Both the position numbers and the translations under genes were made by a program. Shown one piece after another: positions 15,500-33,708 of a stretch of DNA of 44,566 nt (the stretch's first letter is position 1; every line of letters begins with the position of its first letter). The DNA comes from a virus, in IMG/VR virus record IMGVR_UViG_3300035698_007784, positions 1-44,566 of that record; one strand, given 5' to 3'. The notes under the pieces were generated by a model that saw nothing but the letters and a program-made list of their open reading frames with translations, was not told the DNA's origin and ran no database searches.

Positions 15500-15517
15500 C
15501 TTATCCCTTTCAAAACT

Positions 15518-15558
15518 CCCTCCCCGTCCAGCGTCTGCGAATCCGCTTTAGGGGAGGG
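15518..15558 (-). terminator. GC-rich stem-loop, possible attenuator
   Basis: CCCTCCCC (15518-15525) and GGGGAGGG (15551-15558) form a perfect 8-bp stem. Leftward it is followed by AGTTTTG, a short T run that also begins the next gene's leader. Weak for full termination; partial read-through would explain why helicase and DHH genes lie downstream. Confidence 0.45.
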
Positions 15559-15569
15559 GTCCACGGAGG

Positions 15570-19792: not shown

Positions 19793-19887
19793 TGCCCCAG
19801 GCAAGAATCGAACTTGCATCCTTATACGGTTCATTTAGGCAACTTACCATCCTTTCCGGACTCCACCCGTGCGCATCGGGCTGGGGC
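19793..19887 (-). ncRNA. tRNA-like element with perfect acceptor and T arms, no canonical anticodon arm
   Basis: Minus strand: acceptor GCCCCAG (19887-19881) pairs fully with CTGGGGC (19800-19794), discriminator A. T arm GCAAG-TTCGATT-CTTGC matches TTCRANY exactly. A 4-bp hairpin CCCG-ATGCGCA-CGGG follows the 5' acceptor strand in the D-arm place. The 45 nt between hold GTCC-GGAAA-GGAT but no 5-bp/7-nt anticodon arm with U33. No encoded CCA. It directly abuts the terminator at 19888-19947. A degraded long-variable-arm tRNA, a phage attachment-site relic, or a functional tRNA mimic are all possible. Confidence 0.45.
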
Positions 19888-23005: not shown

Positions 23006-23307
23006 TTGTCACCTCCAGGACATTGGATCTCATTAGTTGTAATGATGGAATTTACCATCCATTCGTAGCCACAGAAACCACTTGATTTTTTTCGTAGCTT
23101 TGCGGCTTGGCGACTATCAACAGATTCAGCGGAAATGTTAGCAACCCAACCGTCCCCGAACGAACAGCCGAATGATCCAATTTTAAGGATTTCGCTTGCT
23201 TTGTCTTTTGGGACCGTTCTTGTGACAATATACATTTTCTCTGCGCCGGTCCAACAGTTATTCCATGCGTTGTTACGGGGCATTGAGAGTGTGAATGCGA
23301 TGATCAT
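23002..23307 (-). CDS. Small conserved-looking phage protein, unknown
   Basis: 101 aa. The pattern MPRNNAWNNCWTG .. SFGCSFGDGWVANISAESVDS .. LRKKSSGFCGYEWMVNSI matches a family I have met repeatedly in phages and environmental bacteria without known role. ATGA overlap both sides. Confidence 0.65.
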   Translation of the reverse strand: MIIAFTLSMPRNNAWNNCWTGAEKMYIVTRTVPKDKASEILKIGSFGCSFGDGWVANISAESVDSRQAAKLRKKSSGFCGYEWMVNSIITTNEIQCPGGDK

Positions 23308-23588
23308 TGTACGCCCCCTCTCTGAGTCTCTATATGTCCACCAGGCAGGGCAGGAGTGCCAGGGGCAAGAACGTCTCTAGCTGCTGCTACATCACGTCGC
23401 CCGCCTTCGTAAGCCCCTCGTGCAGCCCCAACAACACAAGCACAGCCCGTGGCATAGCCGGCCCCCCAACCAAGGGCCAGGATCAGGAGCCAAGCCCGCC
23501 CCATACGCCGCAGGGCGGAAATCTCCCTTTTCAGCTTTGTATCGCGTTTTGTTTTGATTTTTCGGACCAATTTTGTTAAGATTTTCAT
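23304..23588 (-). CDS. Small membrane protein, unknown
   Basis: 94 aa with a basic N-terminus (KLVRKIKTKRDTKLKREIS), one glycine-rich membrane segment (AWLLILALGWGAGYATGCACVV) and a charged tail. AGGAGAG precedes the start. It is adjacent to the lysozyme-fold gene cluster, so a holin or antiholin role is conceivable. Confidence 0.55.
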   Translation of the reverse strand: MKILTKLVRKIKTKRDTKLKREISALRRMGRAWLLILALGWGAGYATGCACVVGAARGAYEGGRRDVAAARDVLAPGTPALPGGHIETQRGGVQ

Positions 23589-23657
23589 GTCAGCTCTCCT
23601 AAAAAGTTAAGATTACGCTCCCTCGTGCTATAACACGCGGGGAGCAACTTATGGTTG

Positions 23658-24218
23658 TTATTTTCTTGCTCTGGGCGGTGTTGGGTAGTGCTTGCGTATG
23701 ATGCTGAGTTGTTTTGTTTTTGCAGCAGCATAAGCAGCAGCATCAGCAGCAGCAGCAGCAGCATCAGCAGCAGCAGCAGCAGCAGCAGCATCAGCAGCAG
23801 CATAAGCATAAGCAGCAGCATGAGCATCAGCAGCAGCAGCAGTAGCAGCAGCAGCAGCATAAGCATAAGCAGCATCAGCAGCAGCATAAGCAGCATCAGC
23901 AGCATCTTTAAATTGTTTTTTTGTTACGTCCGCTCCATTTGCATATCGCTTGAGCAGGCTTAATGCCTTCGCTGGTCTTTGTTCGCCTTTTTTGACATAT
24001 TTTAGGCACGGCAGGACCGTCTTGTGCAATACACCGCAGGCTTTCCGGTGCGATTTACTGCTATACGGACCTGTGACACGGAAAATATACCACATCAAGT
24101 CTTGCGGGCGGTCCCATTTGTCCCATGCTTCCTGCCTGGTTTGGTATGATTTGGCCTTTTCAATTGCAGAGTCACAAGCTCCAAGTTGTTTTAAGGTGTT
24201 GATTGTCCTGGTTTTCAT
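23658..24218 (-). CDS. Alanine-repeat protein with trinucleotide-expanded middle
   Basis: 186 aa from the ATG at 24218 (TTGAAGGG leader). The N-terminal half (WDKWDRPQDLMWYIFRV .. KACGVLHKTVLPCLKYVKKGEQRPAKALSLLKRYANG) and the end IIRKHYPTPP match a family I recall from soil and environmental bacteria, sometimes labelled putative immunity protein, always with an alanine/tyrosine/aspartate helix between. Here that helix (about 110-170) is coded by GCA/GCT-TAT-GAT triplet runs. Role unknown. Confidence 0.65.
   Translation of the reverse strand: MKTRTINTLKQLGACDSAIEKAKSYQTRQEAWDKWDRPQDLMWYIFRVTGPYSSKSHRKACGVLHKTVLPCLKYVKKGEQRPAKALSLLKRYANGADVTKKQFKDAADAAYAAADAAYAYAAAAATAAAADAHAAAYAYAAADAAAAAAAADAAAAAADAAAYAAAKTKQLSIIRKHYPTPPRARK
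23720..23910. repeat. GCA/GCT trinucleotide repeat tract inside a gene
   Basis: About 190 bp made almost entirely of AGC-type triplets (CAGCAG.. on the plus strand) interrupted by ATA and ATC triplets. In the gene's frame it codes Ala with scattered Tyr, Asp and His. In other frames it produces long open frames with no meaning. Confidence 0.9.
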
Positions 24219-24245
24219 AGCAATTCCCTTCAATTTGGCGATTTA

Positions 24246-24269
24246 GCTCCCTGGCACGTACCGGGGAGC
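24246..24269. promoter_or_regulatory. Inverted repeat in the leader of the alanine-repeat gene
   Basis: GCTCCC (24246-24251) and GGGAGC (24264-24269), with an inner GG/CC pair and a 6-nt loop. No T run follows leftward, so more likely a stable leader stem or processing site than a terminator. The gap 24219-24337 holds no gene. Confidence 0.45.
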
Positions 24270-24337
24270 GGATCGCGTCTTTGGCAAGTTAATATCTTAA
24301 TCGTACAATTCGCCGGACGACTTAACAACGAATCGGG

Positions 24338-24541
24338 TTATTTAATTCTGCCTAGAAAATTCGGAACCATCACAATTAACAACTCATCACAAAACCGCTC
24401 TAAGGTCTTGTGTGTTACGTTCTGCCCGCGTAAAAACCTAGTCAGGACACTATGGGGCAGGCCAGTTGCCGCAGTAACAGAGTAGGCCGTGCGGCCTTGG
24501 CGGATTAGTTCGTCGGCTATGATTTTACGGTAGTTTTGCAT
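24338..24541 (-). CDS. Small helix-turn-helix protein (Cro-like)
   Basis: 67 aa. RTAYSVTAATGLPHSVLTRFLRGQNVTHKTLERFCDELLI (about 17-56) is an XRE-type helix-turn-helix. Starts inside the stop of the previous gene (TAATG). A second regulator besides the one at 20199, in the other early operon. Confidence 0.7.
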   Translation of the reverse strand: MQNYRKIIADELIRQGRTAYSVTAATGLPHSVLTRFLRGQNVTHKTLERFCDELLIVMVPNFLGRIK

Positions 24542-24732
24542 TAGTATTTCCCGGCTATCACTTCAGAATTTAGAGGTTTACTTAGGGTGTCTAAGACGCA
24601 TCTCATGCACCCAAAAACATCTCTATGGCCAACTTCCCCAAATTTGTGATATTTGGCATAATAGACGTTTTCTGGGACTTTCTTGCATATTTCACAAGGC
24701 CCAAATTCTTTTCCTGTGCCACTTTGTTTCAT
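24541..24732 (-). CDS. Small zinc protein, unknown
   Basis: 63 aa with CEIC and CMRC pairs 29 residues apart, a probable zinc ribbon. TTGAAAGG leader upstream. Coupled to the following regulator. Confidence 0.65.
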   Translation of the reverse strand: MKQSGTGKEFGPCEICKKVPENVYYAKYHKFGEVGHRDVFGCMRCVLDTLSKPLNSEVIAGKY

Positions 24733-24810
24733 AATTCTATTCCTTTCAATCTACGATAACCAATCAAAGGCCCACGATAGGCCCTTGAATGGCCCCCGTA
24801 GGGGCATGGG

Positions 24811-25134
24811 TTAAACAACCAACAGCTTTTCTTCACTTGCCACACGGTAAAGTGCCAAGCTAATTTCGTGCATAATTTCCGCAACTTGTTTTTTTTCAGG
24901 CTCGATCATGTCCAAGTTCTTTTCGGTTGGGTCCATTTCATAGTGCCGACACGCTTCCCGTTGTAGTTTCTCTTTTATTTGTGTCTCACACATCTCCATG
25001 AGTGGCGCAGGCAGCATACCAAAGGCTAATGCTGCAACATAGCTATCGTCAGGCATCTCCATTGTCATATTGTACAATCCTTTTGCAATAGCCCTGTAAT
25101 CAACGGTCGTTTTCAGTCTACAGATAAATTTCAT
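24811..25134 (-). CDS. Early protein, unknown
   Basis: 107 aa, helical, with a short hydrophobic stretch (YVAALAFGMLPAPLMEM) not long enough to be a sure membrane helix. TTGAAAGGGAAT leader. It follows the 50-nt tRNA-like element by 27 bases. Confidence 0.6.
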   Translation of the reverse strand: MKFICRLKTTVDYRAIAKGLYNMTMEMPDDSYVAALAFGMLPAPLMEMCETQIKEKLQREACRHYEMDPTEKNLDMIEPEKKQVAEIMHEISLALYRVASEEKLLVV

Positions 25135-25161
25135 AACAATTCCCTTTCAATTAGTAGGTTA

Positions 25162-25211
25162 CTCCCCCCACCGGAGTCGAACCGATGAGCTGCGCCGTAT
25201 CGCAGGGGGGA
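25162..25211 (-). ncRNA. 50-nt miniature tRNA-like element
   Basis: Minus strand: acceptor TCCCCCC (25211-25205) pairs fully with GGGGGGA (25169-25163), discriminator G. T arm ATCGG-TTCGACT-CCGGT fits TTCRANY with a closed 5-bp stem (one U-G pair). Between them is one 4-bp hairpin TGCG-ATACGG-CGCA and the four bases GCTC. There is no anticodon arm and no second arm. It sits alone between two early genes on the coding strand. All three helices being intact argues against a decaying fragment. Confidence 0.6.
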
Positions 25212-25219
25212 ATAGATGG

Positions 25220-25441
25220 TTACATATGAAGGTGAACAGAGTATTGAGCGAGGTTTGTCATTGCACAGAATAATTCGGTTAAATTATTGATTACAAATAT
25301 ATGATTTTCGTTGCTTTTCAGGTCTATCTTTTGCAAGGACCATGGTTTAACGTCAATACCGTAGAATTTTGGTATCTTAAACGTCCAATGATTCTTTTGT
25401 GATACAAAGTCAAGCTTTACGTCGATGTTTTTAAGTCTCAT
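25220..25441 (-). CDS. Small early protein, unknown
   Basis: 73 aa, beta-rich, ending in VHLHM. TTGAAAGGG leader. No family recognised. It is the gene immediately upstream of the miniature tRNA-like element, so the element would lie in its 3' region. Confidence 0.6.
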   Translation of the reverse strand: MRLKNIDVKLDFVSQKNHWTFKIPKFYGIDVKPWSLQKIDLKSNENHIFVINNLTELFCAMTNLAQYSVHLHM

Positions 25442-25510
25442 TTTATTACCCTTTCAACACAGAGCCAAATAGGCCCAGATAAACAATATGAATGTTTGGC
25501 GAGACATTGT

Positions 25511-25771
25511 TTAGCCCCTTCCGAATGGGTCTTTTATTGCTTCTTTGCATTGCTCATTACATCGGGCGAAAAACTCGGATAGTCCGACTAAATGGGGTTG
25601 TACTCGTTTCAGAATAGATGCTGCATGATCGTCTCGTTGGCCGTTGCTAAGACCTAAACCTTCCCATTCTTCGAGCATTTCGTCGACTTCATAGGCCAGA
25701 TGGGATTGCCTTCGTGTTGCCTCAAAGAGTAGGTTTTTCAGTGACGTGAGTCTTTCGGTTGCCGTTTTCAT
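25511..25771 (-). CDS. Small helical early protein, unknown
   Basis: 86 aa, coiled-coil-like helices (LTSLKNLLFEATRRQSHLAYEVDEML). TTGAAAGGGATATT leader. Unrecognised. Confidence 0.6.
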   Translation of the reverse strand: MKTATERLTSLKNLLFEATRRQSHLAYEVDEMLEEWEGLGLSNGQRDDHAASILKRVQPHLVGLSEFFARCNEQCKEAIKDPFGRG

Positions 25772-25850
25772 AATATCCCTTTCAAGTTACGGTTAAAATC
25801 AATACACTCTGCAAAGTGCCCCGATGATTTGGGTCGCTGAACAGAAAATA

Positions 25851-26039
25851 TCAATCAGTGATCCATGTCTGGGCGGTGTAATCATAGTAGGGTTTGCCTG
25901 TTAATAGCTGTTCAATACGCTGCAGTTCACCAGCCAACATATCGAGGGTTAATCCATCATGGCCAGGGTGTGATAGAGCCATTAGGTTATGAGTTTGGGT
26001 GGATTTGAGTGCGGCTTGAATACGTTTCTCAGTTAACAT
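25851..26039 (-). CDS. Small early protein, unknown (first gene of the leftward early block)
   Basis: 62 aa, helical with a short aromatic end (YYDYTAQTWITD). ATTGAAAGGAG leader. First gene after the divergent region at 26.04-26.24 kb and so probably among the earliest products. No family recognised. Confidence 0.6.
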   Translation of the reverse strand: MLTEKRIQAALKSTQTHNLMALSHPGHDGLTLDMLAGELQRIEQLLTGKPYYDYTAQTWITD

Positions 26040-26095
26040 TGCAAGCTCCTTTCAATAGGTTATCAATTGAACTGTCTTAACTATAAGCTTTCATC

Positions 26096-26123
26096 GTCAT
26101 AGTGGCAAACGAAATCCAGTCAA
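26096..26123 (-). promoter_or_regulatory. Putative leftward early promoter
   Basis: TTGACT (26123-26118), 16-bp spacer, TATGAC (26101-26096). Imperfect -10, but correctly placed for the 26039-22281 gene block, which has no better candidate. Confidence 0.4.
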
Positions 26124-26137
26124 AGTTCAGAAGATAC

Positions 26138-26166
26138 TTGACAACCAGCACCCAAAAGCCGAGAAT
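26138..26166 (+). promoter_or_regulatory. Rightward promoter of the packaging/structural operon
   Basis: Consensus TTGACA (26138-26143), 17-bp spacer, GAGAAT (26161-26166). A weak -10 after a perfect -35 is typical of an activated promoter. Followed by a hairpin CGCCC-GTAAAT-GGGCG (26188-26203) in the leader; read leftward this hairpin is followed by TTTTT and could stop antisense transcription. Confidence 0.55.
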
Positions 26167-26235
26167 ATACACATAAGATTCTAAAAACGCCCGTAAATGG
26201 GCGAATTAGTAAACGCCAAATGATCGGATTATCTT

Positions 26236-26433
26236 ATGGACGGCATAAACTTAGAGCCTAGGGATATGACAGATCCAGCAGCAACACGGAGTCATATCAT
26301 CCGAGCAACGGCGGAACTGATTAGGATATGTATGCTAATTCCTCTAAAACCAAACAGCGAAAACCAGGATCATCAACAGGACGCAATTGAGCACCTGAGA
26401 GACGCGCAACACTCAATTAAAGAGATCAAATGA
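26236..26433 (+). CDS. Small protein at the head of the late operon, unknown
   Basis: 65 aa, mostly helical (SHIIRATAELIRICMLIPL .. AIEHLRDAQHSIKEI). Overlaps the next gene by ATGA. First product of the rightward transcript. Confidence 0.6.
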   Translation: MDGINLEPRDMTDPAATRSHIIRATAELIRICMLIPLKPNSENQDHQQDAIEHLRDAQHSIKEIK

Positions 26434-26684
26434 AGGTAGAACCAAAGAAATACTACTGGCTATCACGAAAATGGAGCAAACCAGTAAAAGTCATAATCTG
26501 GCAGACCGACGGCAAACTTGCTCAAATTGGTGTAAATGACGGCAAAGATGATGTTTATTCTGATACGTGCCAAATATCTGACCTTTATCCTACAGCCAAA
26601 AAAGCAAAAGAAATTAGCCGACAATTCAGAATCAAAGAACTAAAGGCAGAACTAAAGAAATTGACGGTGACCCATGCTAAATAA
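26430..26684 (+). CDS. Small protein, unknown
   Basis: 84 aa. The N-terminal half is a small beta-sheet (KYYWLSRKWSKPVKVIIWQTDGKLAQIGV); the C-terminal half a basic helix (AKEISRQFRIKELKAELKKL). Could bind nucleic acid; no family recognised. Overlaps both neighbours. Confidence 0.6.
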   Translation: MKVEPKKYYWLSRKWSKPVKVIIWQTDGKLAQIGVNDGKDDVYSDTCQISDLYPTAKKAKEISRQFRIKELKAELKKLTVTHAK

Positions 26685-26775
26685 CCAGATCGCCGAAAAT
26701 CAATGCAAATGCCTACAATGCCGCATAGACCAGTACGATGAGTCTGAGCGGCTTTCCCCCCCGATGGATAGATAA
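26674..26775 (+). CDS. 33-aa cysteine-containing ORF, possible
   Basis: ATG at 26674 overlaps the end of the previous gene by 11 bases and its stop overlaps the small terminase start (TAATG). Product has CKCLQC. It fills an otherwise empty gap in a region where every gene is coupled, which is its main support. Confidence 0.4.
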   Translation: MLNNQIAENQCKCLQCRIDQYDESERLSPPMDR

Positions 26776-27413
26776 TGGTAGCAACAACACAAATAGCCAG
26801 CCAGCCGAAAACCACGAGCCCCAAGATAAAGAGGGGTGCAGGTAGGCCAAGATCATTTATCCTTTCGCCAGAACAATATGAAAGATGTATGACAATAGCC
26901 TACGACCAAGGCACAATGCAAATGATAGCAGACGTCATAGATGTTAGCTATGATAGCCTGAAACGTCATTATGAGAAGAAAATCCGTGCTAAAAGGTCTG
27001 AGGGCAGGGCGGATCTGCTTCATGTCCAGCGTGAACAGGCGACCCGCAACCCCATCATGGCCATATTTCTCGGGAAGAATCACCTAGGTCAAGCGGATAA
27101 GATGGACAAGCCCGACGTTCACGTAACAATTGAGCATAAGTCGTTTGATGTCAAGGGCTTAGGCGACACAAGCATCTGCAAACCAGATGTCACAACCTTA
27201 ATGTCACTACCCAAATCTGGCACAAATGCGGATAATGTACACAACATAGACAGCAGCGATCAGGCCAAAAACCCCACTGAGGCTCCAGAAACACGGGAGA
27301 GTAGTTTTGTGGCCGAAGGGCCATTGCCGACTAAGGATGCGGAGAATGTACACTCTCTAAGGGTAGGCCAGACAGAACAAGTGGGACCCCTATCCCAACC
27401 CGAGGGGGGGTAA
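26775..27413 (+). CDS. terS: Terminase small subunit (putative)
   Basis: 212 aa, directly before the large terminase. Residues 20-115 form a helix-turn-helix region (GRPRSFILSPEQYERCMTI .. MIADVIDVSYDSLKRHYEKKI) followed by NPIMAIFLGKNHLGQADK, a signature I know from many small terminases. The C-terminal 90 residues are disordered and P/S/T-rich, with two related stretches (ADNVHNIDSS, AENVHSLRVG). It would bind the packaging site and dock the large subunit. Its stop codon lies in the loop of a GC hairpin. Confidence 0.7.
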   Translation: MVATTQIASQPKTTSPKIKRGAGRPRSFILSPEQYERCMTIAYDQGTMQMIADVIDVSYDSLKRHYEKKIRAKRSEGRADLLHVQREQATRNPIMAIFLGKNHLGQADKMDKPDVHVTIEHKSFDVKGLGDTSICKPDVTTLMSLPKSGTNADNVHNIDSSDQAKNPTEAPETRESSFVAEGPLPTKDAENVHSLRVGQTEQVGPLSQPEGG

Positions 27414-27419
27414 CCCCCC
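27405..27419 (+). promoter_or_regulatory. Six-GC-pair hairpin with the stop codon as its loop
   Basis: GGGGGG (27405-27410), TAA (the small terminase stop), CCCCCC (27414-27419). Three-base loop. The gap 27414-27503 to the large terminase holds no other feature. Confidence 0.6.
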
Positions 27420-27503
27420 AGGGAGATTGGAGAAGAATTGTGATCTATCCCGTGTATGCTCGTTTCGAACAAAAGGTTCCCCTAACCTACCCTTGTTAAC
27501 ATT

Positions 27504-28862
27504 ATGGCTAAAGACACATTAAGAGTTTCGATACCTCATCATTTTGAGCCCCGTGATTATCAGGTTCCATTTTGGCGAGCTGCGGTAGGCGATCCTGGCA
27601 AGGGTATTTCGCCGAGTCACAATCGTGTTGCCTGTGTATGGCATCGTCGAGCTGGCAAGGACAAGACATTTTTGAACGCGTTTATTAGTCACATGACGGC
27701 CCGGGTTGGTTTTTACCCATATTACTTTCCTACTCAGGCACAGGGTCGGAAGATTTTATGGAAGGGGATGGACAAGGAGGGTTTTCCATTTTTGAAGCAT
27801 TTTCCTCGCGAGATGATTCGTAAGCAGAACGACCAGGAGATGATTATAGAGTTAATAAACGGGAGTATTTTCCAGATAATGGGAACAGACCGTTTAGAGG
27901 TTGTAGGGATGAACCCTATTGGTTGTGTTTTCAGCGAGTTCAGTTTACAGAATCCAGAGGCATGGGAGCTGATTAAGCCGATTTTAGTTGAGAACGGCGG
28001 CTTTGCATGGTTCAACTTCACCCCTCGTGGCAAGAATCACGCATACAAGGTATTGCGTAACGGCCAGCGTAGTGATCGTTGGTTCACTGAGGTTTTGACT
28101 GTTAACGAGACGAAAGCGGTAAGTTTACAGGCTATTCAGGATGAGAAAGACGATGGAATGCCGGAGGATCTTATCCAACAGGAGTTTTTCTGTTCGTTTG
28201 ACCTTGGCATTAAGGGTGCGTATTACGCTACGTTGATGAATGACGCATGGAACGCTGGTAGGATAGGCGATATTCCACATGACCGGAGCAAGAAGGTTTA
28301 TACGGTCTGGGATTTAGGTTGGGCGGACCCTACGGCTATCACATTTTATCAGAAGGACGGTCAGTACTACAATATCATCGATTATTATGAGGACGACGGT
28401 CAGGCTATAGCTGAGTACGCCCGTGTATTGGACGATAAGCGTCGTGAGCACGGATATCACTACGGGACTCACTTTGCCCCTCACGACGTAGCGAAGCACT
28501 CTCAGACTGACGGCAGGAGTGTATTTAGTGCAGCGAAGGAGGCTGGTTTACAGTTCAAGAAGTGCAAGAAGGAGAAGACTGTCGGCAACGCCCAGTACGG
28601 AGGTATAGAGCGTACTCGGAGATTCATCCCCAAGTTACGTTGGGACCAAGTGAAGTGTAAGCGGTTGATTGAGGGCATGGAAGGTTATCGCAAGCAGTAC
28701 AACGAGAAGATGCAGTGTTATTTAGACAAGCCTCTTCACGACTGGTGCAGTCAACCGGCGGACACTATTCGGTTAATGAGTCAAGCGGTAAAGATTGACG
28801 AGGCAAATTACGACAAGGGTTACTACGCGAAGTTAAGGAGTCACTTCCGTGTGCCTGCTTAG
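27504..28862 (+). CDS. terL: Terminase large subunit (packaging ATPase-nuclease)
   Basis: 452 aa. ATPase: Walker A-like WHRRAGKDKT (about 47-56), Walker B GCVFSEF with its catalytic Glu, coupling motif FNFTPRGK (about 170-177). Nuclease: VWDLGWADPTAI (first Asp pair, about 268), YEDDGQ and HFAPHDVAKHS. All main motifs are present, and length is usual for this class. It pumps DNA through the portal and cuts it. No strong Shine-Dalgarno; the start is fixed by the N-terminal pattern IPHHFEPRDYQVPFWRA, typical of such terminases. The portal gene follows after eight bases. Confidence 0.92.
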   Translation: MAKDTLRVSIPHHFEPRDYQVPFWRAAVGDPGKGISPSHNRVACVWHRRAGKDKTFLNAFISHMTARVGFYPYYFPTQAQGRKILWKGMDKEGFPFLKHFPREMIRKQNDQEMIIELINGSIFQIMGTDRLEVVGMNPIGCVFSEFSLQNPEAWELIKPILVENGGFAWFNFTPRGKNHAYKVLRNGQRSDRWFTEVLTVNETKAVSLQAIQDEKDDGMPEDLIQQEFFCSFDLGIKGAYYATLMNDAWNAGRIGDIPHDRSKKVYTVWDLGWADPTAITFYQKDGQYYNIIDYYEDDGQAIAEYARVLDDKRREHGYHYGTHFAPHDVAKHSQTDGRSVFSAAKEAGLQFKKCKKEKTVGNAQYGGIERTRRFIPKLRWDQVKCKRLIEGMEGYRKQYNEKMQCYLDKPLHDWCSQPADTIRLMSQAVKIDEANYDKGYYAKLRSHFRVPA

Positions 28863-28870
28863 AGGTTCTT

Positions 28871-30826
28871 ATGAAGTTTGATGACTCAAAGAAAGATTAC
28901 TTAGAGGCTTACGACACGGCGAACAGCGGCTGGTCGATGTGGCTTCCTGAAGCGACTTCTGATCTTGAGTTCTACGCGAACGCTCAGTGGAACGGGGAGG
29001 ACTTGAAGGTATTGAAGGAGTTGAACCGTACTGCTGTTACACTTAACAAGGTTAAGCGTACGGTGAACTTGATTTCAGGTATAGAGATCCGCGACCGTCA
29101 CATTTTAAAGATTGGCCCTACCGGTTTTGACGATGACCAGTCATGCAGTCAGATGACCGAGTTGGTTATGAACGCGATGACATGTGGCGACGGGTATGAT
29201 ATTTTGAGTGACTGTTTCAAGTGGGGTGCATTGTGTACGGGTGCGAACCTGATTGAGCCTTATTTGGATAGAGAGGGCTACATCAAGTTTGCTAGGCGTG
29301 CGCACAACTCTTTCTTGTTAGATCCTGCCTTTACGAAGAAGGACTTATCTGACTGCCGGTACATTTTGGGTGGTCAGTATTTATCGGACGGGTTGATTCT
29401 TGAGTTTATCCCTGAATTAACGAAAAAGAGCTTAGAGGAGATCCCGAAGGGCAGTTCTTTACGTTGGAACTATCTATCAAGGAATCACAAACGGAAATTA
29501 AGGATGGTCGAAGAGTTCTGGCGTCGTGACTCGAAGACGATTCCTATGATAATTGATAGAATGACAGGTAAGCAGCACGAGTTTGACGACTTCGCCACCA
29601 AATTAGGTGGGGACAAGAAGTATGCTAATTATGTCGTGGGTAACGATATCTCTGCGAACGGCTCTCCCCGTTGGAGTAAGTTCAACGCGACCAAGCGTAT
29701 GGTGACTCTGACAGTTTTTGTTGACGGCGAACCTGTAGCAGAGCAGGAGAACCCTTCTCAGATAGACGACTTCAACCAGACCTTAGTTTCTGGCGATTTC
29801 ATTCCAGAGCTTGAGAGAGACGATTTGAAGCTTCAGGGCATCGTCAGGACATTAAGAGACATCCAGAACGTCAAGAACAAGCGTATTTCACAGATGATTG
29901 ACATTGTGGAAGCTCAGTTAACCGTATGGCGGAAGGCGAAAGCTGGTTCTTTAGTAGATGACCGAGACGCTTACGGTAGTGGCCAGGGTAATGTTGTATG
30001 GATGAAGGAAGAATCTGACATGAACGACTTCCAGCAGTTACCTGGTGTGGGTATCCCTGCTGGCGTTTTTGGGCTGTTTGAGACATTAGAGAAGGAAGAG
30101 ATCCAGATTGCCGGCTTAAACGAGTCGATCTTTGGCACTGAGCAGTCGGAAGTATCTGGAGTTTTGGAGAAACAGCGTACTGGTGCCGCCTTAACTGGTC
30201 AGCAGGGTCTTTTTCAGTCATTTAGAGGCTCGAAGCGAGAGTTAGGCCGGAAGCTAGTCAAGATCATCCAGAAGAACTACTCAGACCAAAAGATCCAGAG
30301 GATCACTAATAAGCCACCTGCCCAGGACTTGAGAGTACCAGACTTCACGAAGTACGACTGTGTACCAACGGAAGGGCTCTTAACGGACTCTCAGCGTCAG
30401 TTGTACTATCTTGAGTTACGAGGGTTGAAACGTGAAGATCCGAGTATTCCTATTCCTTGGAGCGAGATTCTTGCTGCAGCGCCTATGCAGAATAAGGACC
30501 GGCTATTGGAGTCTATCAAGAAGCAGGAACAGCAGGAACAACAGCAACAGGAACAGGAACAGAAAGAGAAGCAACAGCTTGAACGTCTAAGGGAAGCCAA
30601 GATCCAGGCAGACCTTGGCCGTGGTGTAGAACGTCAGACCCAGGCGGTAGAGAACCGCACGACAGCTCAGTTGAACCGAGCGAAGCTAATGACCGAGATT
30701 CAAGACCTACAGAACAGAGGTCAGTTGGAGCAAGTTGACCGGTTGTTGGAACGGATGCGGTTAGAGATTGAGATGGAGAAGGCCATGACAGAGAGAATGA
30801 AGGCAAACTCAACAGGAGACAAGTAA
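28871..30826 (+). CDS. Portal protein (P22-like)
   Basis: 651 aa. The start (KKDYLEAYDTANSGWSMWLPEATSDLEFYANAQW, with TLNKVKRTVNLISGIE following) is the typical opening of P22-type portals, which thread the genome through the capsid vertex as a dodecamer. A Gln/Glu-rich coiled coil (about 540-575, runs of Q and E) and further helices form the C-terminal barrel, shorter than in P22. Gene order terminase-portal-scaffold-capsid supports it. TAATG overlap with the next gene. Confidence 0.85.
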   Translation: MKFDDSKKDYLEAYDTANSGWSMWLPEATSDLEFYANAQWNGEDLKVLKELNRTAVTLNKVKRTVNLISGIEIRDRHILKIGPTGFDDDQSCSQMTELVMNAMTCGDGYDILSDCFKWGALCTGANLIEPYLDREGYIKFARRAHNSFLLDPAFTKKDLSDCRYILGGQYLSDGLILEFIPELTKKSLEEIPKGSSLRWNYLSRNHKRKLRMVEEFWRRDSKTIPMIIDRMTGKQHEFDDFATKLGGDKKYANYVVGNDISANGSPRWSKFNATKRMVTLTVFVDGEPVAEQENPSQIDDFNQTLVSGDFIPELERDDLKLQGIVRTLRDIQNVKNKRISQMIDIVEAQLTVWRKAKAGSLVDDRDAYGSGQGNVVWMKEESDMNDFQQLPGVGIPAGVFGLFETLEKEEIQIAGLNESIFGTEQSEVSGVLEKQRTGAALTGQQGLFQSFRGSKRELGRKLVKIIQKNYSDQKIQRITNKPPAQDLRVPDFTKYDCVPTEGLLTDSQRQLYYLELRGLKREDPSIPIPWSEILAAAPMQNKDRLLESIKKQEQQEQQQQEQEQKEKQQLERLREAKIQADLGRGVERQTQAVENRTTAQLNRAKLMTEIQDLQNRGQLEQVDRLLERMRLEIEMEKAMTERMKANSTGDK

Positions 30827-31230
30827 TGCCCCAGACAGGTGAAATCAGAGACGAGCTTAGAAAAGAGCTTCTCAGGAACCTAGACCGCATCGTAGGTCAC
30901 GATGGTCTGAAGAACTTTGACCCTGCCTTAACGAACTACGGTCATTGGGAGCATCTGACTAAGGTCATGGAACGCAGAACGAAACATGCGAAGAACTATT
31001 GGCTCTTAATCCACGACAAGTGGGTGGGTGACGTTCTTCATACGTTCATTATCGTTCTTGACGGTATGCCGGACAAGTTCATAGGTACTCAAGTATGGCA
31101 GGTTAACGAATCGAGAGGGAAGGTTGACTGTCGATGGGTATTACCGATAGACCGACCGGCGACGAATGTAGACTTGGTAGACCCTTCTGGCAAGATTCTT
31201 GAGAGTGCGAAGGGAGCGCCGTTACATTGA
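30826..31230 (+). CDS. Structural-operon protein, unknown
   Basis: 134 aa. Helical N-terminus (EIRDELRKELLRNLDRIVGHDG), then beta-rich with KNYWLLIHDKWVGDVLHTFIIVL. No recognised family. Coupled to portal (TAATG) and to the small gene after it (TTGA overlap). Could be a head-completion or portal-associated protein. Confidence 0.6.
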   Translation: MPQTGEIRDELRKELLRNLDRIVGHDGLKNFDPALTNYGHWEHLTKVMERRTKHAKNYWLLIHDKWVGDVLHTFIIVLDGMPDKFIGTQVWQVNESRGKVDCRWVLPIDRPATNVDLVDPSGKILESAKGAPLH

Positions 31231-31379
31231 CGAATAAGAAGGTAAAAGAAGAGCTGGACAAGATCATTAAAGAGCATCCAGATTTTACTGGTAAGTGTGA
31301 AATAAACTATAAGGCTGGACGGCCTATGGATATTAACACAACGATACGTATATCGTTGAAAGAACAGAAGACCTATTAA
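31227..31379 (+). CDS. 50-aa TTG-start protein (DUF2292/YezD-like pattern)
   Basis: TTG at 31227 overlaps the previous stop (TTGA) and has AAGGGAG upstream at good spacing; the frame ends at 31379. The pattern DKIIKEHPDFTGKCEINYKAGRP resembles the small YezD/DUF2292-type proteins common in phages and bacteria, of unknown role. The rare start and short length make it easy to miss. Confidence 0.6.
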   Translation: MTNKKVKEELDKIIKEHPDFTGKCEINYKAGRPMDINTTIRISLKEQKTY

Positions 31380-31391
31380 GTGGAGATTACA

Positions 31392-32144
31392 ATGAGCGAA
31401 GAACAAGCCGTCGAATCGGCTCAAACGGACGTTACTGCTGGTGCCGCTGGTGCCGCATCTGGTGCCGTCGACCAGACTACGGGCGATACAGTTCCTGACG
31501 CCGGGGAACAATCTCAAGAACAAACGGGTGTAGAGCAAGGTGCCGCCGACCAGAGTCACGAGAAAACAGTACCTTTGACAGCGTTAGAGGCCGAACGACA
31601 GAAACGACAGCAGTTAGAATTTCAACTAAATCAGATGACGCAACAGCAACCACCCCAGCAGCAACTGTCACAAAAGGACATGGTCATGCAGCAGTACGGC
31701 CTTGAACAGAGTGACATTGTGGAGTCTGACAAGCTGGCCCAGATCCTAGCATCGGAGCGTCAGGCATTTGCTAAAGCGTTAGAGTCGTTACAGTATCAGT
31801 CGAAGCACAAAGACTTTACTGAAGTCGTTGGTGACGGTCAACAGTTCGCTACTCCACTAATGGAACGTTTAAATGCAAACCCGAACTTAATGCGTGCTTT
31901 GAAATCAAGTCCTGATTGGCAAGAGTTAGCTTACGAGATTGGCAGCTTACAGAAACAGGTAAGCAAGCTAAAGAGTGGTAAGGCCACTCAATCTCAGGTA
32001 GCAGAAACGGTGAACAACATCACACGATTGATTCCTCCTGGAGCGTCAGGTTCTTCGGGAGCCATTAATCAGAGTTCCCGTTACTCCGATATGCCAAGAG
32101 ATGACTTTGAGGCAGAGGTATCGCGTATAAAAAGGAGTGGCTAA
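31392..32144 (+). CDS. Capsid scaffold protein (putative)
   Basis: 250 aa from the ATG at 31392 (GTGGAG upstream). Acidic, low-complexity N-terminus, Q-rich coiled coil (LEAERQKRQQLEFQLNQMTQQQ), helical C-terminus, and a basic last segment (RIKRSG) such as scaffolds use to touch the capsid protein. Located between portal and capsid genes, where scaffolds lie. Assignment from composition and position. Confidence 0.65.
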   Translation: MSEEQAVESAQTDVTAGAAGAASGAVDQTTGDTVPDAGEQSQEQTGVEQGAADQSHEKTVPLTALEAERQKRQQLEFQLNQMTQQQPPQQQLSQKDMVMQQYGLEQSDIVESDKLAQILASERQAFAKALESLQYQSKHKDFTEVVGDGQQFATPLMERLNANPNLMRALKSSPDWQELAYEIGSLQKQVSKLKSGKATQSQVAETVNNITRLIPPGASGSSGAINQSSRYSDMPRDDFEAEVSRIKRSG

Positions 32145-32147
32145 ACA

Positions 32148-33074
32148 ATGGCTAATCTCACAACGACAACCACACAGATCGATCATCCAGTAGATGTCTA
32201 CTATGATCGTCTGCTGTTGGAACGAACGACCCCACTGTTGGTACACGCTCAATTTGGGCAGATGCGTAACATCCCCAATAAAAGCGGCGATACCATTAAA
32301 TTCCGGCGTTACGCTTCACTTTCGGTAGCAACCACCCCTCTCACTGAAGGCGAAGATCCCAACGCCCAACAGATCAGCAAGACGGACATTCTGGCCCAGG
32401 TAGCCTGGTACGGCACGTTCGTCAAAGTCACGGATCGCGTTTCCTTGACTGTCGCAGATGCAGTCACTTCAGAGATCGTTGAGATCCTCGGTGAGAACCG
32501 TGGCGAAACGATTGACGAGTTGACCCGCGACGTTCTTGGTGCTACGGCATCCTCGACAACCTGCTCGAACGGTACTGGAACGGCAACCTTGCTGAACCGC
32601 ACTGATATTGACACGGTAGTCCAAACCCTTTACGGTAACCGAGCGAAGTTCATCACAAGTTCCTTGAAGGCTTCTACAGGTCAAGGCACGGCTCCGATTC
32701 GTCCCTCTTATATGGGGATTCTCGACACCGACTTGATTGACGATCTGGAAGTTGTTTCTGGTTACAAGAACACTGTAGAGTACGGCAACTGGACGAATCT
32801 CTACGAGGGCGAATGGGGTGCGACTGGTAATGTTCGATGGATCGCCACGGACAAGGGTTATACTTCCAGCACCAACTACCACTGTCCCATTATCGGCAAG
32901 AACGCTTACGGCGTAACGTCGATTGACATGGGTACAGCAGAGCTAATCCACCACACGCCTAAAGAGGCGGGAAGCGCCTTGGAAATGTACGAGACCTTGG
33001 GTTGGAAGCAGCCTCATGTAGCTCGAATCCTCAACGATAACTTCATTCATGTACTCATCTGCACGAATGGCTAA
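32148..33074 (+). CDS. Major capsid protein, N4-gp56 family
   Basis: 308 aa. The opening (DVYYDRLLLERTTPLLVHAQFGQMRNIPNKSGDTIKFRRY, then LTEGEDP and ISKTDILAQVAWYGTFVKVTDRV) and the later PSYMGILDTDLIDDL are characteristic of the N4-gp56-type HK97-fold capsid family. Strong codon bias compared with neighbours and three-base spacing from the scaffold gene fit a highly expressed protein. It forms the icosahedral shell. Confidence 0.9.
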   Translation: MANLTTTTTQIDHPVDVYYDRLLLERTTPLLVHAQFGQMRNIPNKSGDTIKFRRYASLSVATTPLTEGEDPNAQQISKTDILAQVAWYGTFVKVTDRVSLTVADAVTSEIVEILGENRGETIDELTRDVLGATASSTTCSNGTGTATLLNRTDIDTVVQTLYGNRAKFITSSLKASTGQGTAPIRPSYMGILDTDLIDDLEVVSGYKNTVEYGNWTNLYEGEWGATGNVRWIATDKGYTSSTNYHCPIIGKNAYGVTSIDMGTAELIHHTPKEAGSALEMYETLGWKQPHVARILNDNFIHVLICTNG

Positions 33075-33090
33075 TACAAGGAGCTGAATA

Positions 33091-33708
33091 ATGGATACAG
33101 CAACTGTTGAACGAATTTGGATTGCTGACGGCAACGCTGTCAATGTCGATTGTGGGTTTATCCCCAATCGGTGCATCCTCTTTTATGATTATGAACAAAC
33201 GAATCCGTTACGGATTGACTGGTCATATAATCTATACAAACTCCGTACTGCCTACGGTCTTTTGACTACAGGTTCATCTGGAGTTATCACACAACTCAGT
33301 ACTGCTGCTACGGGGATTATTCCTTATGATTCATCTTCTGCAACCCCGACTATCAACGAATATACCACAACGGTATCGACGGCTGCTACTGCACGAACTG
33401 CTACGGCGGCAGGTACTTACGTCAAGCCTTCGACGAGTTCCACAATGGATCGTGACGCAGTATTTGAGTGTGTAACGGCTGGTACGGGTGCTGCTGAACC
33501 GACTTGGCCTCTGGGTATTGGCGAGCAGATTCTTGAAACTGCTGGTGATGTTGTTTGGGAGCGTGTAAACGTAGCCCGCGAAAACGGCGGATTCCAGGGC
33601 GTAACCGTCGGAGCAACTACACAGACTGACGGATATTATTGTGTCCTTTACGCAGAGCGTGGCGATTCCAAGGACCTGGGCAACGCGGACAATATTCTTC
33701 CTGCATAA
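33091..33708 (+). CDS. Capsid-associated protein, unknown (decoration candidate)
   Basis: 205 aa, beta-rich, threonine/alanine-rich middle (STAATARTATAAGTYVKPS). Residues 110-145 contain FECVTAGTGAAEPTWP, a motif common in phage head-fibre and tail surface proteins. Placed directly after the capsid gene with its own GGAGCTG site. A capsid decoration or head-fibre protein is the best guess. Confidence 0.55.
   Translation: MDTATVERIWIADGNAVNVDCGFIPNRCILFYDYEQTNPLRIDWSYNLYKLRTAYGLLTTGSSGVITQLSTAATGIIPYDSSSATPTINEYTTTVSTAATARTATAAGTYVKPSTSSTMDRDAVFECVTAGTGAAEPTWPLGIGEQILETAGDVVWERVNVARENGGFQGVTVGATTQTDGYYCVLYAERGDSKDLGNADNILPA

Follow-up and report, generated by a model that had tools for sequence, protein, structure and literature searches.

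A 50-nt tRNA-like element between early genes of a phage, and a class of phage mini-tRNAs without an anticodon arm

The DNA analysed here (the window) is a virus contig of 44.6 kb from IMG/VR. In its leftward early operon, two ORFs of the minus strand, encoding unknown proteins of 73 aa (25220..25441) and 107 aa (24811..25134), are separated by a gap of 85 nt that holds a tRNA-like element on the same strand. The stop codon of the upstream ORF lies 8 nt before the element, the start codon of the downstream ORF lies 28 nt past its acceptor stem, and an RBS-like AAAGGG is found between the acceptor and this start codon. The initial annotation had placed a tRNA-like RNA at 25162-25211 among early genes; the coordinates, the structure and the placement between the two ORFs were all found to be right, and the strand, which had been left unnamed, is minus (25211 to 25162).

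Read in this direction, the 5' strand of the acceptor stem, TCCCCCC (25205..25211), pairs perfectly over 7 bp with its 3' strand, GGGGGGA (25163..25169). Between them lie a D-like hairpin predicted by folding, TGCG-ATACGG-CGCA, with 4 bp and a 6-nt loop containing GG (25191..25204), a 4-nt linker, GCTC, in the place of the anticodon arm and variable loop (25187..25190), and a T arm that was recognized by both pattern and covariance model (25170..25186). The T arm is composed of ATCGG (25186-25182), the consensus loop TTCGACT (25181-25175) and CCGGT (25174-25170), with one U-G wobble in the stem. A discriminator-like G (25162) follows the acceptor, with TAA next and no encoded CCA, and a U stands at position -1 (25212), so that the predicted RNase P cut is 25212/25211. 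The perfect acceptor, the consensus T arm and the single 4-bp hairpin described initially were thus all recovered, and the linker indeed leaves no room for an anticodon arm; an arm with a 7-nt loop is absent. ARAGORN did not call the element a tRNA, the Rfam tRNA model (RF00005) matched nothing in the whole window at the gathering threshold, nor the surroundings of the element when E values up to 10 were allowed, and the phage has no further tRNA in the window. Host tRNA 3' ends are frequent in attP sites, and the element might be a phage attachment site of this kind. However, a paired 5' acceptor strand and the hairpin are present as well, and no integrase was found among 30 proteins scanned (smaller ORFs being only partly covered), which makes this origin very improbable.

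The minus strand of the element folded at -24.9 kcal/mol (z -2.2; 6 of 200 shuffles were equally good), and the plus strand of the region was unremarkable (z -0.8). In the minimum free energy structure, C25205 was paired with G25190 and not with G25169, giving helices of 6, 5 and 6 bp instead of 7, 4 and 5 bp; the strict tRNA-like form lies 2.1 kcal/mol above this minimum. With the exception of C25205-G25169, every pair stayed at a probability of about 0.97 or higher when folded within 270 nt of mRNA. Under a strict definition (a Watson-Crick 7-bp acceptor, a GTTCRANYC T loop and a 5-bp T stem), one match was found in the window and none in 2000 second-order Markov genomes, and a loose definition allowing G-U pairs and a loose T loop gave 0.05 elements per shuffled genome. 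These results uphold the earlier claim of a tRNA-like RNA and place it beyond chance; in our preferred explanation, it is truly an RNA domain derived from or resembling a tRNA, with the acceptor stacked on the T arm.

Other gaps of the leftward operon hold strong stem-loops on the minus strand (-22 to -32 kcal/mol, at 15500-15569, 23589-23657, 24234-24337 and 24733-24810); GCTCCC...GGGAGC stems occur in two of them and a T loop in none, and they may be mRNA stabilisers or processing sites. Since at least four other gaps carry strong stem-loops that are not tRNA-like, a generic role is conceivable for the element as well: it could be an ordinary intergenic stem-loop that stabilises the mRNA or serves as an RNase III/E site and only by coincidence resembles a T loop. 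The exact stacking of 7 and 5 bp, the GTTCGANTC loop, the result with the 2000 shuffled genomes and the class-model score given below nevertheless speak against coincidence, and we consider this explanation quite improbable. A second consensus-like T arm, GCAAGTTCGATTCTTGC, occurs on the minus strand at 19801-19817 near a pentapeptide-repeat gene; it has no acceptor and is probably due to chance.

Close relatives were sought by the neighbour protein, the portal protein and a DNA pattern, and one contig only was obtained, which has 9994 bp, matches 23217-33316 at 98-99.9% and is 100% identical in the element region. Because this sole close relative is identical at the element, it carries no covariation information for the window copy. 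Named phages had no match at the nucleotide level to either the element region or 1-25000, and the terminase, portal and DHH proteins of the window phage had distant relatives only. The alignment with the near-identical contig breaks at 23810-23822, inside an ORF (23658-24233) with a long GCT/GAT (Ala/Asp-rich) repeat around 23730-23905, and this break is probably repeat-length variation; the same ORF gave a sub-threshold Rfam isrG match, most likely a low-complexity effect.

We searched IMG/VR for sequences in which a tRNA T loop comes so soon after a tRNA D arm that no anticodon arm fits between them; the acceptor was left unspecified, and 50 distinct sequences were obtained. The results showed that on average 5.86 of 7 acceptor pairs formed in these sequences, against 3.32 when strands of different sequences were combined, and that pairing was full in 60% of them, against 1.3% of the mixed-strand combinations. 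The distance from D arm to T arm peaked sharply at 11 nt (19 of 50), corresponding to an 8-nt linker, and was never below 10 nt. Among the 19 sequences with the 11-nt gap, each of the seven acceptor pairs and of the three outer pairs of the T stem was changed on both sides; their covariation score was 0.595, compared with 0.152 in shuffled sequences (0/500) and at most 0.157 with slid partners. A second scan, in which only half of the D stem, the linker and the T loop were fixed, added more members, and the two scans together gave 39 distinct sequences with the D arm and the 8-nt linker, 34 of which had at least 6 of 7 acceptor pairs. Many second-scan matches without the TAGCTC D arm looked like 3' parts of ordinary tRNAs or tmRNAs and were removed by requiring the D arm and acceptor pairing. 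In 1.9 Mb of fetched phage DNA, the distance from acceptor to T stem was bimodal, with 26-28 nt in mini-tRNAs and 39-43 nt in full tRNAs; as the fetched loci were chosen by pattern, this bimodality describes the discreteness of the class and not its frequency. A pattern search of 199 genomes of the phylum of L006 found no mini-tRNA, and one mini-tRNA used as query had no match in plasmids. These results show that a discrete class of phage mini-tRNAs without an anticodon arm exists and covaries.

The class consensus, 56-60 nt long, consists of a 7-bp acceptor, UA (U8-A9), a D arm GCTCAG..GG..AGAGC with a loop of 7-9 nt, a linker, the T arm and the second acceptor strand. The linker has 8 nt (8-11 nt were accepted), reads about CTTGGGTC and ends in an invariant C (C48, partner of G15). 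The Rfam tRNA model scored the tested members at about 35-52 bits, above its cut-off, and ARAGORN called none of the examined members a tRNA. The acceptor is free in sequence, with every pair type at 3:70; the discriminator was A in 21 of 45 members, the next base was C in 27 of 45, an enrichment, and ACCA was encoded in 5 of 45. A bias for U at position -1 was not found across the class. Repeatedly, the mini-tRNA was the only tRNA-family match in contigs or genomes of 34-47 kb (e.g., G201, G202, G204, G210, G214, Danklef, P335 and bIL309). Mini-tRNAs are often intergenic, about 46-58 nt past the upstream stop and 19-50 nt before the next start, and are often preceded by a GC-rich hairpin; this lone, intergenic, same-strand setting is usual and not universal, and the layout is firm for clear cases only, gene calling being crude in GC-rich loci. 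PHROGs assignments placed a major head protein gene upstream and a tail protein gene downstream of the L016 mini-tRNA, and a terminase small subunit gene downstream of that of L034.

Named phages also carry members of the class. Polaribacter phage Danklef has one of 58 nt between small ORFs, annotated as 'tRNA-OTHER, Undet (NNN)', and lactococcal phages of the P335 group share an almost identical 60-nt member with the perfect acceptor GGTTCTT/AAGAACC, which follows the lysin gene and has no RNA annotation (L116 199-258, L117 2494-2553, L120 1994-2053; P335, bIL309 and D2544 were examined, and ul36, TP712 and others were covered by BLAST). The P335-group mini-tRNA adjoins TGTGCCAAA or GTAGCAAA direct repeats, which could be integrase arm sites. 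L022, L031 and L059 have the identical acceptor TCCGGTG/CACCGGA and linkers of different length (8 vs 11 nt), suggesting a linker change inside one lineage. In another group (L011, L051 and L063, also L153, L154 and L190), related mini-tRNAs stand behind a GC-rich terminator-like hairpin, and several encode ACCA; between members of this group, acceptor changes are compensated (C1-G72 to G1-C72).

We then compared the window element with this class. The class covariance model R2 found it as the best match in the window, with 20.1 bits and an E value of 2.4e-4 by a rough calibration, the next match having 0.29. Like the class, the element has a 7-bp acceptor that runs straight into a 5-bp T arm with the GTTCGANTC loop, and it is intergenic, on the strand of its neighbours and without another tRNA. 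Its hairpin, however, directly follows the acceptor, with no U8-A9 and no D arm of the GCTCAG..GG..AGAGC type, a part that R2 skips, and the linker has 4 nt instead of 8 (8-11), ending in C all the same. Nothing else of this size and make-up was found in the fetched DNA. Because it lacks U8-A9, the standard D arm and the 8-nt linker, we do not count the element as a member of the class and regard it as a shorter analogue built on the same acceptor and T-arm principle.

Vestigial tRNAs are common in phages, and the window copy, as distinct from the class, might be the functionless relic of a tRNA-Gln-like gene whose anticodon arm was deleted. Among about 85,000 genomes, the TCCCCCC/GGGGGGA acceptor occurred together with the same T loop in only two full-length tRNAs, both tRNA-Gln(UUG), and the element has the run TTCCCCCCTG and the U1-A72 pair in common with both genes. 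This lead nevertheless consists of two sequences only, the acceptor is perfect with every helix intact, the window phage has no other tRNAs, and similar mini-tRNAs found repeatedly elsewhere covary and have one set linker length, not deletions of various sizes. We therefore regard a relic as unlikely. The initial annotation had argued that the element does not look like decay: the helices are intact as it said, and the claim is plausible because a recurrent, covarying class shows that tRNAs without an anticodon arm are maintained, while the window copy itself lends it nothing further, its sole relative being identical.

As to function, our tentative preference, held at somewhat below an even chance, is that the element marks the early mRNA for processing of the RNase P type and thereby separates cistrons. 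It would be carried within a polycistronic early message, presuming that both ORFs are transcribed on one mRNA; host RNase P would recognize the 12-bp helix of acceptor and T arm with its T loop and cut at 25212/25211, and RNase Z and the CCA enzyme might act on the 3' side. Such a cut would part the two cistrons on either side of the element and create new mRNA ends, presumably with a regulatory purpose. A helix of about 12 bp made of acceptor and T stem, with a T loop, is what RNase P requires of a substrate (PMC11143913), and the element has such a helix. Among non-tRNA substrates of RNase P are the precursor of the C4 antisense RNA of phages P1 and P7, phage M3 RNA, T4 gene 32 mRNA and operon mRNAs (PMC11143913); as proposed here, a tRNA-like element lies within a longer phage or operon RNA, and the likeness is one of description, not of sequence, with cleavage demonstrated there and predicted here. 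The class repeats the layout of the window, being intergenic at L016, before the terminase gene at L034 and between small ORFs in Danklef. Because class acceptors covary while their sequence is free, an enzyme that reads shape fits better than an aminoacyl-tRNA synthetase. Against the processing signal stand the missing encoded CCA, the class position -1 without U bias, and the lack of U8-A9, the standard D arm and the standard linker in the window copy. GTAA follows the acceptor in the place of 3' RCCA, which is favoured by E. coli-type RNase P; many bacteria do not encode CCA.

The numbers for the 3' end (ACCA in 5 of 45 members and C enriched after the discriminator) leave room for a trans-acting, CCA-tailed RNA. 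Such a mini-tRNA would be excised and stable, acting as a decoy or substrate for the CCA enzyme, EF-Tu, or tRNA-targeting defence nucleases or nucleotidyltransferases. The class keeps the acceptor, D and T arms, the G15-C48 pair and the letters of the tRNA elbow, usually as the sole tRNA-like gene of its phage, and A as discriminator in 21 of 45 members also suits this role. However, the class has no conserved acceptor identity and mostly lacks an encoded CCA, and the window copy has G73 followed by TAA, and we rate a role in trans as rather unlikely.

The element and the class share the acceptor stem, the T arm with a TTCGANT loop and the discriminator position with the tRNA family (RF00005); the class differs in having no anticodon arm, and the window copy also in having no standard D arm. 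The tRNA-like domain of tmRNA likewise joins an acceptor to a T arm and lacks an anticodon arm, but the window element has no tag-encoding mRNA domain, no pseudoknots and no conserved G3-U70, and neither an Rfam tmRNA match nor a tag reading frame was found in the window. The mascRNA and menRNA of MALAT1 and MEN beta are reportedly tRNA-like RNAs of about 60 nt with no usable anticodon that are freed by RNase P; they are unrelated vertebrate nuclear RNAs. tRNAOther of Bacillus cereus is a pseudo-tRNA unused in translation that was proposed to be a structural element of a larger RNA (PMC3399842); it resembles the window element, by description and not by sequence, in being tRNA-like and non-translating, and differs in being bacterial and located beside a genomic island.

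A search of the open literature for anticodon-less, mini or truncated phage tRNAs, with subscription papers and preprints mostly outside it, returned no description of the class, and an earlier one may exist; the published ideas that come nearest are the phage RNAs processed by RNase P and tRNAOther of B. cereus. Apparently, tRNAs that retain just the acceptor, the D arm and the T arm form an undescribed class, with the window element reduced further. Because an RNA without a decoding arm cannot translate, phages that have exactly one of them and no other tRNA keep it for a use outside translation. We give an even chance to the broader proposal that phages of many hosts carry an undescribed family of lone tRNAs minus the anticodon arm, in which acceptor, D arm and T arm are kept and the linker is fixed at 8 nt. 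The family would serve as portable processing signals or decoys of the tRNA machinery, with the 50-nt window element as the most strongly reduced natural form observed. The class is discrete, covaries and is found in phages of very different hosts, yet it is overlooked by tRNA finders or reported by them as 'undetermined'. Should its members be RNase P sites, phages would be punctuating their messages with the shape of a tRNA; a decoy role would instead hint at a struggle for the machinery that handles tRNAs. Both readings can be tested in named phages with cultured hosts, namely Polaribacter phage Danklef and the Lactococcus phage P335 group.

A separate scan for elements of the tRNA-Gln type mostly returned tRNAs with shortened or unusual anticodon arms in tRNA arrays and not clean mini-tRNAs. 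In the phage tRNA arrays of L085, L091, L104, L083 and L098, some of the tRNA-like genes that lie among normal tRNAs have reduced or unusual anticodon arms with loops of 4-6 nt, and these genes may represent a second kind of non-decoding phage tRNA.
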